In this document: positions 58,555-60,432 of the stretch, one piece after another
Layout: every line of letters begins with the position of its first letter
Numbering within the stretch: position 1 is the stretch's first letter
Assembly (NCBI RefSeq): GCF_001870515.1
Contig: NZ_MDGT01000003.1
Span: 636,151-700,150, forward strand
From: Idiomarina sp. MD25a
Lineage (GTDB): Bacteria; Pseudomonadota; Gammaproteobacteria; Enterobacterales; Alteromonadaceae
Length of the DNA stretch: 64,000 bases
Direction of reading: 5' to 3'
Made by a program: the position numbers and the translations under genes
Notes under the pieces: model-generated
What the model was told of the DNA's origin: nothing
Databases searched by the model: none
Seen by the model: only the letters and a program-made list of their open reading frames with translations

Positions 58555-59580
58555 ATGATTGAAGCAGATCACATCCCCAGTCACCGCATTATCGAAGCCG
58601 ATGTACAAGGCGATGATGAAGCCATTGACCGTGCCATTCGTCCTAAAAAGCTCGCCGACTATACGGGTCAGAAGCATGTCGTCGAGCAGATGGAAATCTT
58701 TATTGAGGCGGCTCGCAAGCGCGAGGAAGCGCTCGACCACTTATTGATTTTTGGACCGCCTGGTTTGGGTAAAACGACCTTAGCCAATATTGTTGCGAAC
58801 GAGCTGGATGTGAACATCAAAACCACCTCGGGACCGGTGCTCGAAAAAGCCGGCGATCTCGCGGCGTTGCTGACGAATCTCGATGCCCATGATGTGCTGT
58901 TTATCGATGAAATACATCGATTGAGTCCCGTGGTTGAAGAAATCCTCTATCCCGCGATGGAAGACTACCAACTCGATATTATGATAGGTGAGGGACCCGC
59001 CGCGCGTTCTATAAAACTCGACTTACCGCCGTTTACGCTGATTGGCGCGACGACGCGGGCAGGCGCGCTGACGTCGCCACTGCGCGACCGCTTTGGCATC
59101 GTACAGCGCTTAGAATTCTACCAAGTCGAAGAACTGACCGAGATCATAAAGCGCTCGGCGCATTACATGAATGTGAATATGGACGTGGGTGGCGCACAAG
59201 AAATCGCGCGTCGCTCACGGGGTACGCCACGGATTGCCAATCGACTGTTACGGCGAGTACGAGACTACGCCGAAGTAAAAGCCGATGGTAAAGTGAATCA
59301 AGATATAGCCAGTGCCGCACTGACCATGGTGGATGTCGACCAAGCCGGTTTTGACTACATGGATAGAAAACTGCTGCTCGCGATTATGGAGAAGTTTTTA
59401 GGCGGCCCTGTGGGTTTAGACAACCTGGCCGCAGCCATCGGTGAAGAAAAGGACACCATCGAGGATGTGCTCGAACCTTATTTGATTCAACAAGGTTTCT
59501 TACAGCGTACTCCACGCGGTCGTATCGCCACACCGCGGGCATACCGCCACTTTGGTTTAAATCCCAACGCAGAAGAGTAA
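58555..59580 (+). CDS. ruvB: Holliday junction branch migration ATPase RuvB
   Basis: 341 aa AAA+ helicase. Walker [11 protein letters not shown] (about 66), Walker [10 protein letters not shown], sensor GATTRAG, and a C-terminal winged helix ([16 protein letters not shown]). Motor of RuvAB. Confidence 0.98.
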
Positions 59581-59608: not shown

Positions 59609-59638
59609 AAAAAAAAGCCCGAACCAAATGGAACGGGC
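59609..59638 (-). terminator. Rho-independent terminator of the candidate small RNA
   Basis: On the minus strand GCCCG-tt-CC, ATTT loop, GG-tt-CGGGC followed by T8 (59616-59609). On the plus strand there is no T-run, so it does not serve ruvB well. Confidence 0.75.
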
Positions 59639-59749
59639 AAACAGAACAACAAGAAGGAAGTTAAAAATCCAGGGAACCTACTTTAAGTAATCAAAAAAAG
59701 TAAGTAACAATCTAAGAAGAAGTGACAACCAATCTCCTCATCTCGATTT
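59609..59749 (-). ncRNA. Candidate small RNA, about 140 nt
   Basis: Between a strong promoter and a rho-independent terminator on the minus strand, facing ruvB. The transcript has U-rich single-stranded-looking stretches (several UUCUU/ACUUAC elements) suited to Hfq-type pairing. It contains a possible 9-codon frame (ATG near 59741, MRRLVVTSSS), but without a good ribosome-binding site. I do not recognise an Rfam family. Existence is inferred from signals only. Confidence 0.55.
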
Positions 59750-59756
59750 AGGGGCT

Positions 59757-59784
59757 ATTATACGCCCGAATGAGGCATCATCAA
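59757..59784 (-). promoter_or_regulatory. Sigma-70 promoter of the candidate small RNA
   Basis: Minus strand TTGATG (59784-59779), 16-base spacer, perfect TATAAT (59762-59757). Predicted start 59749-59751. Confidence 0.65.
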
Positions 59785-60018: not shown

Positions 60019-60432
60019 ATGCAAGAGGCGGTCTTTAGCTGGCCCATACGGGTCTATTACGAGGATACCGATGCAGGTGGTATCGTTTATTATGCGAATT
60101 ATCTCAAGTTTATTGAGCGAGCTAGGACAGAATGGTTAAGGTCTTTAGGGATTGAACAGGATAGCTGGTTAGATCACAATAGAGCCTTCGTGGTGCGTCA
60201 TGTCGATCTCGACTTGCAAGCAGCGGCAAGGTTTAATGCTGAACTGACGGTGACCGTCGTGGTCGAACAGGTCAAGAAAGCATCCTTAGTGTTTACTCAG
60301 CAAGTTGTGGGCGCCGATGGCACCTTACATTGTCAGGCACGGGTGAAAGCCGCATGTGTCGACAAAGATGCGATGAAAGCGGTCGCAATACCCGATAGTA
60401 TCTTACAAGCGATAAAAGCAGAGGTTAGTTAG
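60019..60432 (+). CDS. ybgC: Tol-Pal-associated acyl-CoA thioesterase
   Basis: 137 aa hotdog-fold thioesterase with YYEDTDAGGIVYYANYLKF (split after Gly) containing the catalytic Asp. AAGGAA precedes the ATG. It hydrolyses acyl-CoA/ACP thioesters. First gene of the tol-pal cluster. Confidence 0.96.
   Translation: MQEAVFSWPIRVYYEDTDAGGIVYYANYLKFIERARTEWLRSLGIEQDSWLDHNRAFVVRHVDLDLQAAARFNAELTVTVVVEQVKKASLVFTQQVVGADGTLHCQARVKAACVDKDAMKAVAIPDSILQAIKAEVS

Follow-up and report, generated by a model that had tools for sequence, protein, structure and literature searches.

The analysed window is a 64,000-nt stretch of the Idiomarina sp. MD25a genome, and the region of interest is the 438-bp gap between ruvB (58555–59580, plus strand) and ybgC (60019–60432, plus strand), the first gene before tolQ. 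Both genes had been named in an earlier note on this DNA, and the name ruvB agrees with the conserved order ruvC-ruvA-ruvB. On the minus strand of the gap lies an sRNA unit. A promoter scan located the -35 hexamer TTGATG (59784–59779) and the -10 hexamer TATAAT (59762–59757) with a spacing of 16 nt, which places the predicted +1 near 59750. The sRNA gene, whose start is deduced from the -10 hexamer, comprises ~142 nt (59750–59609) and ends with the terminator stem-loop GCCCGTTCCATTTGGTTCGGGC (59638–59617; stem GCCCG/CGGGC, from the predicted fold) and a T8 tail (59616–59609, read from the sequence), a feature typical of Hfq binding. These coordinates confirm the complete minus-strand unit of about 140 nt described in the earlier note. 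They also agree with the direction given there, since the transcript runs toward the convergent ruvB and away from ybgC, which is divergent from it.

Taken alone, the promoter and terminator motifs prove little, because promoter-like sites are common in this region (seven in 4 kb compared to 4.5 +/- 1.8 expected) and the GCCCG/CGGGC stem is missing from the list of the terminator scan, probably because of the 12 nt that lie within its five outer pairs. The predicted fold of the sRNA was better than that of all 200 shuffled sequences (z -2.6). It is conservation that raises the unit above chance. In the DNA search of the genus Idiomarina, the unit was found in 17 of 18 relatives, in all 17 behind ruvB, and in the remaining genome (G018) the region is masked with N. 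Thus, the unit withstood the condition under which the earlier note would have given it up, namely that promoter and terminator are not conserved in close relatives. The abundance of promoter-like sites could be taken as a sign of a fortuitous promoter-terminator pair without function, but this is contradicted by conservation with covariation over many genera, and we regard it as practically negligible.

The sRNA core, GUUCCCUGGA...CUUCCUUC...CUUGUUGUU, is followed by a terminator that co-varies. This arrangement is shared by Idiomarina, Alteromonas, Pseudoalteromonas, Bowmanella, Alkalimonas and further genera, in most cases next to ruvB and ybgC/tolQ. In public genomes the exact core pattern matched at least 119 stretches, also including Aliiglaciecola, Salinimonas and Lacimicrobium, and 76 distinct core sequences were obtained. 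Among the 80 pattern matches listed, 71 have ruvB, ybgC or tolQ in the surrounding DNA. Eight of the other nine are chance matches in unrelated taxa and have no terminator, and the ninth (L099, Aliiglaciecola sp.) is an sRNA kept without any of these neighbours. A covariance model, R1, was built from 39 core sequences and matched 51 of 394 genomes of the order (32 in family f1, six each in f20 and f6, five in f15 and one each in f27 and f25). Several of these 51 genomes supplied training sequences and match by construction, and the two to three weakest matches, including those in f27 and f25, look like terminator-only matches. At least three listed f1 genomes have no R1 match. Additional matches in the genus at query positions 160–192 cover the terminator alone, so that second copies of the sRNA were rejected. 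In other f1 genera a variant sRNA was observed which carries an extra CAACUU/AAGUUG hairpin directly before the terminator (L066, L069, L075, L076, L081 and L060).

The earlier note had also pointed out the proximity to the tol-pal operon. The position is correct, with ybgC and tolQ next to the unit, but the vicinity looks incidental, because the sRNAs of f6 and f15 have other genes on one or both sides. According to Pfam, these are a prolyl oligopeptidase gene upstream in L230, L240 and L246, a ybgC-like gene in L241, and MotY or TamB genes downstream.

Several sequence blocks of the transcript are strongly conserved. The motif GUUCCCUGGA (59677–59668) is invariant in the alignment of 15 genus sequences and nearly so between genera, and UUCCUUC and UUGUUG are also invariant in this alignment. 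The predicted seed CUUCCUUCUUGUUGUU (59660–59645) is complementary to ribosome-binding sites (RBSs); within it, UUCCUUCUUGUUGUU is invariant in the 15 sequences, and the first C is present in 14 of them. In contrast to these fixed blocks, the spacer between GUUCCCUGGA and UUCCUUC is 6, 8, 10, 11 or 12 nt long in the genus, and 3 to 14 nt over all cores measured. Short frames are present, for example a nine-codon ATG..TAG frame in the window recognized by eye, but no frame is kept through the core, where the spacer varies in this manner between invariant nucleotides. A small protein gene is disfavoured because the steps in spacer length are not multiples of three, and we consider it very improbable. 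Pfam gave no match for an antisense 52-aa ORF. The covariance analysis in relatives suggested in the earlier note revealed compensatory changes in the terminator stem: the pair 63-72 is UA, AU, GC or CG in 37 of 39 sequences. At the sequence level the unit thus encodes an RNA and not a protein, as the earlier note had assumed. In the consensus fold of the genus, the conserved 5’ part of the sRNA (59742–59726) is paired with the seed region (59663–59648). Such self-pairing may keep the seed inaccessible until the region is opened by a target or by Hfq; nearly all of the pairs are unvaried, and covariation is neutral on whether this pairing is real.

The sRNA was then compared to known RNA families (Rfam release 15). 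At the gathering level Rfam had no match in the window. A permissive search of the intergenic region (E up to 10) gave five matches far below threshold, including one of 13 bits to anti-hemB, and GcvB was not among them. In the relatives, the only matches over threshold were to cspA, away from the sRNA. The Burkholderia RNA 7 anti-hemB (RF02837) resembles the sRNA in a UCCCUG stretch and in a terminator made of GCCCG/CGGGC and U8, but it reaches 37.6 bits at best in the relatives scanned (gathering score 49.5) and its alignments rest largely on the terminator. Similarly, mmgR/suhB (RF00519), which has a pyrimidine-rich stretch before the terminator, scores 27.6 bits at best compared to the gathering score of 41. 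Sub-threshold anti-hemB matches were observed repeatedly at these sRNAs (L205, L213, L217, L228, L230, L231, L240, L241 and L246), in two cases together with mmgR. Perhaps this resemblance marks a loose class of pyrimidine-rich anti-Shine-Dalgarno sRNAs, or merely similar terminators.

Pf1-Pf3 of Pseudoalteromonas fuliginea and Aln1a-c of Alteromonas macleodii, presented as Csr RNAs in PMC11882849 and PMC5864184, are intergenic sRNAs of the same bacterial group. Unlike the sRNA described here, they bind CsrA via repeated GGA motifs: 25 GGA are given for Pf1, 21 for Pf2 and 9 for Pf3, compared to two in the Idiomarina sRNA. A CsrB/RsmY-type CsrA sponge, for which many GGA motifs in loops are expected, was therefore rejected. 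The motif UUUCCCUGG is presumably also contained in ArcZ and SdsR, which we take to differ in locus and terminator. Among the open-access literature matches listed we found no description of this sRNA, and the main text of PMC5471319 contains nothing on this locus. For A. macleodii Te101, 127 chromosomal sRNAs are reported (PMC5864184), and the locus may already be among them as an unnamed transcript. The family is uncatalogued and matches no Rfam model at threshold, in line with the proposal in the earlier note of an undescribed small RNA.

Three aspects are new compared to that note: the breadth of conservation, a GcvA-type box upstream of the promoter, and a link to GcvB. The box ATTAGTTTTTCTAAT (59821–59807, minus strand; read directly and found by pattern match at G000:C3:695957-695971) is the palindrome ATTAG-N5-CTAAT, with its centre ~64 nt upstream of the predicted sRNA start. 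According to a figure legend in PMC3658693, the GcvA consensus is T-N11-A containing CTAAT, and the box fits it at the sequence level. Between the box and the -10 hexamer, and overlapping the -35 hexamer, lies the conserved element GTAATTTTTCTAGCTTGATG (59799–59780), which was seen in the relatives’ sequences and resembles CATTATAATTTGTCCGTTG of gcvB promoters.

The box was counted in 150 distinct loci out of 169 collected, in which a genome may be represented twice. Terminator-only R1 matches (L239, L243-L245 and L247-L249) were dropped before the count, and the variant loci L066-L085 were outside of it. With at most one mismatch the box is present in 109 of the 150 loci, but only in 3% of shuffled upstream regions (20 mononucleotide shuffles per locus). 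Sixty loci have an exact box, 49 have one mismatch, 40 have two and one has three; since the loci are related by descent, these numbers measure conservation and not independent events. In 104 of the 109 boxed loci the box centre is located 64–68 nt before the predicted +1, and 61 of the 109 have the -10 hexamer TATAAT. The box is also retained where the neighbouring genes differ (1, 1, 1, 1 and 2 mismatches in the f15 loci; 0, 0, 0 and 2 in the f6 loci), and is thus to be assigned to the sRNA rather than to ybgC. The other 41 loci have no box at this stringency. Six of them (L105, L126, L132, L144, L157 (Pseudoalteromonas) and L173) were rechecked and have no box with at most one mismatch in the 330 nt upstream; they keep the sRNA core, and the control there may have changed.

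For comparison, we analyzed 15 canonical gcvB promoters (four from an earlier GcvB search, the one of G043, and the ten best from the scan of 394 genomes). The best box match lies at -65 to -67 in ten of them, the same box was recognized there by eye in L321, L324 and L326, and the gcvB loci L062 and L279 do not fit this position. The gcvB boxes have 0–2 mismatches, with at most one in five of the 15, and are looser than the ATTAG-N5-CTAAT pattern. Among genomes of the sRNA families, an exact box precedes gcvA in four of 11 (G225, G266, G138 and G026; three of f1 and one of f6) and gcvT in one of nine read (G225, f6). It was found before neither gene in the window genome, and not before gcvT in the seven f1 genomes read.

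The window genome encodes GcvA, as judged by 428 bits with the NCBI GcvA model (cut-off 288). The protein is 58% identical overall to the query, and in the DNA-binding domain it shares 86% identity with the GcvA from a genome that has GcvB. A GcvA orthologue was present in all 11 genomes besides the query’s own (58–72% identical), the next LysR protein being at most 38% identical. The gcvA gene of the window genome is located at G000:C3:1071837, ~376 kb from the sRNA, which is not the gcvA-adjacent position of GcvB. GcvB (RF00022) was detected over cut-off in 103 of the 394 genomes, all in families f5, f8, f9, f10, f12, f18 and f21, in a scan with stricter filters that lose weak matches. Above threshold, these 103 and the 51 R1-positive genomes do not overlap (0 of 394), a family-level pattern to which no probability is attached; five of the 51 have some GcvB match, always below cut-off.

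A GcvB at or near the locus itself was rejected: the covariance model (gathering score 42 bits) has no match in the window, and the only GcvB match listed at these sRNAs is one of 21.1 bits at L205. Elsewhere in Idiomarina, RF00022 matches of 27–31 bits in G002, G003 and G017 correspond to a cold-shock gene; the cspA leader was found in G003 and G017, and G002 looks alike by eye. A weak match in G018 falls in coding sequence, another is present in G011, and those in G023, G025, G034, G040 and G049 have no gcvA neighbour by eye. A true, gcvA-linked GcvB exists in G043.

Which mRNAs could be bound by the sRNA? The earlier note had guessed that U-rich segments serve for base-pairing, and CUUCCUUCUUGUUGUU indeed is among the best-conserved parts and has exceptional matches to RBSs. 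In the 32% of the window genome that was read, perfect complementarity of 12–16 nt to the sRNA occurs at the RBSs of three genes only, encoding a secreted DUF5117/Met-zincin protein (a metalloprotease) and the valine degradation enzymes MmsB (TIGR01692) and MmsA (TIGR01722). The mmsB and mmsA genes end 1.3 and 4.6 kb before gcvA. The matches of 16, 13 and 12 nt lie at -21, -20 and -18 and concern three of 787 gene starts, as defined by a simple caller; all others have at most 10 nt. In the window together with 400 kb from its contig (414 starts, 39-nt single-stranded segment), these three genes had 16, 13 and 12 nt and the rest at most 9. In 200 dinucleotide shuffles, neither a 16-nt match nor a set of three genes with at least 12 nt ever occurred. 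This 400-kb stretch was not chosen blind, as the exact 15-mer and the mmsB sites in it were already known. Another 400 kb on a different contig (355 starts) gave nothing above 10 nt. On both strands of 864 kb there are 36 twelve-base matches, 28 in the sRNA gene and eight at the three sites.

In a second species (G003), the best of 240 starts in the syntenic 260 kb (~10% of the genome) is mmsA (12 nt), followed by mmsB (11 nt), and the metalloprotease site is absent from the orthologue. In G012, the mmsA and mmsB sites shrink to ACAACAGGA with weaker duplexes, and ACAACA is kept beside the Shine-Dalgarno sequence, three bases shorter. The segment UUGUUGUUCUGUUUG is present in the window and in most of the genus, and ACAACAAGAAGG matches at the three RBSs; duplex energies were no better than those of 40 shuffled seeds (mean of the top ten -26.6 vs -26.0 +/- 1.2 kcal/mol). 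The share of signal-peptide-like starts is 26% for all genes, 35% for the top 20 and 22% for the top 40 by duplex energy.

A scan of five whole Idiomarina genomes with ACAACAAGAAGGAAG gave one exact match outside the sRNA, located at an RBS in the window genome. Allowing two mismatches, 33 matches were found compared to 47 for the reversed control. Five of the 33 are the sRNA itself, three have no locus, and ten of the other 25, which were read, lie just before a start codon. Nine of these ten genes were assigned by Pfam: four encode peptidases (Met-zincin, S15, M14 and M1), the others an SDF symporter, PGI, an integrase, GH16 and a carboxyltransferase-domain protein. As the total for ACAACAAGAAGGAAG is no higher than that of the control, we treat the connection to peptidases as no more than a lead. 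Exact complements of GUUCCCUGGA revealed no recurrent target in the five genomes, and in five leaders of SBP_bac_5 genes no obvious sRNA site was recognized by eye.

The likeness to GcvB comprises the promoter, with a GcvA-type box near -65 and similar flanks, the occurrence of the two RNAs in complementary sets of families among the 394 genomes, and the probable pairing at ACA-rich RBSs together with the words ACUUCC and GUUGUU. GcvB pairs through a GU-rich single-stranded region, represses genes for the transport of amino acids and peptides, and depends on Hfq. In E. coli, GcvA activates gcvB at high glycine (PMC3658693), and GcvB acts on ACA/CA-rich elements of RBSs (excerpt of PMC3879156). 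There are also clear differences. GcvB is divergent from gcvA, but the sRNA is not, and it is unseen by the GcvB model; GcvB is ~200 nt long (same excerpt of PMC3879156) and has two terminators in E. coli (figure legend in PMC1557403), whereas the sRNA has ~142 nt and one terminator. The order of the motifs also differs, and the predicted targets of the sRNA are a protease and valine catabolism instead of dppA/oppA. Thus, the sRNA probably works like GcvB in its promoter and targeting, but because it is not recognized by the family model and is not adjacent to gcvA, we do not file it as GcvB.

On balance we favour, with some reservation, the view that this is a GcvA-activated, GcvB-like trans-acting sRNA, which fills the place of GcvB in families without a recognizable GcvB. 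When glycine or amino acids are plentiful, the LysR-type regulator GcvA would switch on the sRNA. Its U/C-rich CUUCCUUCUUGUUGUU would then pair, aided by Hfq, with ACA-rich Shine-Dalgarno regions. Translation of the secreted metalloprotease, MmsA and MmsB would be lowered, resulting in less protease and less valine breakdown. What the sequences show is a complete conserved unit, a promoter of the gcvB kind that includes a GcvA-type box, the mutual exclusion with canonical GcvB in the 394 genomes, and exceptional complementarity at three RBSs, two of which are kept in a second species; we infer that the unit is transcribed, that GcvA binds and conveys the glycine signal, and that the sRNA needs Hfq and represses its targets.

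Two other readings accept a real RNA. It could be a conserved Hfq-type sRNA under the control of another LysR-type or similar regulator, in which case the likeness to gcvB promoters would stem from a type of box common to both, and the main targets may be other genes. Other LysR proteins may recognize half sites of the CTAAT type, some Pseudoalteromonas retain the sRNA but have no box, and reading a third of the genome yielded just three strong target sites, in a stretch whose choice was not blind. However, the likeness to gcvB promoters is not limited to the box but spans the flank after it, a downstream AATTT-TC-GTTG element and the -65 spacing, and in an f6 genome carrying the sRNA the box also precedes gcvA and gcvT; we consider this reading unlikely. 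The other is a sub-case of our preferred explanation, according to which the sRNA is a highly diverged and relocated true gcvB orthologue rather than another RNA that has come under this promoter. The promoter similarity, the mutual exclusion with GcvB and the shared words ACUUCC and UUGUUGU..UGUUUGC (by eye) speak for such descent, but the only GcvB-model match listed at these sRNAs reaches half of the cut-off (L205), and the order of motifs, the length and the distance to gcvA are all unlike GcvB. Descent from gcvB appears rather doubtful to us, though less so than control by another regulator.

Under the preferred explanation of a GcvA-activated, GcvB-like sRNA, it is tempting to speculate that Alteromonadales-type bacteria kept the GcvA switch and the gcvB promoter and replaced the RNA behind them by an unrelated or unrecognizably remodelled one at a new locus. 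This RNA would govern the response to amino-acid sufficiency, with secreted proteases and the breakdown of branched-chain amino acids as its targets in place of ABC transporters. We offer this tentatively, as a possibility somewhat short of an even chance. If true, it would be a testable case of a core regulatory RNA replaced inside a conserved circuit and would explain amino-acid control in large marine bacterial groups without recognizable GcvB. GcvB is a model multi-target sRNA whose homologues have been sought starting from gcvA (PMC1557403), and a displaced counterpart would be missed by searches anchored in this way. The sRNA would also add a family unmatched by any Rfam release 15 model.

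The box pattern was also followed outside of the sRNA loci. A wider ATTAG-N5-CTAAT regulon in the genus was rejected, with 3–4 sites per genome in five genomes compared to 1–8 for the reversed control, and in nine of 12 non-sRNA box loci read the site is inside a gene (stop-to-stop frames). In two Idiomarina genomes (G000 and G012; L266 and L269), the palindrome ATTAGAGATGCTAAT was seen upstream of a gene that by eye is glutaredoxin-like. Finally, at L291 and L294-L297 a GcvA-type box, perfect in four cases and partial in L295, lies upstream of gcvA at the place where sister families carry gcvB. By eye, these loci contain a short ORF divergent from gcvA, whose small product has a signal-like start; it may be another GcvA-controlled gene.
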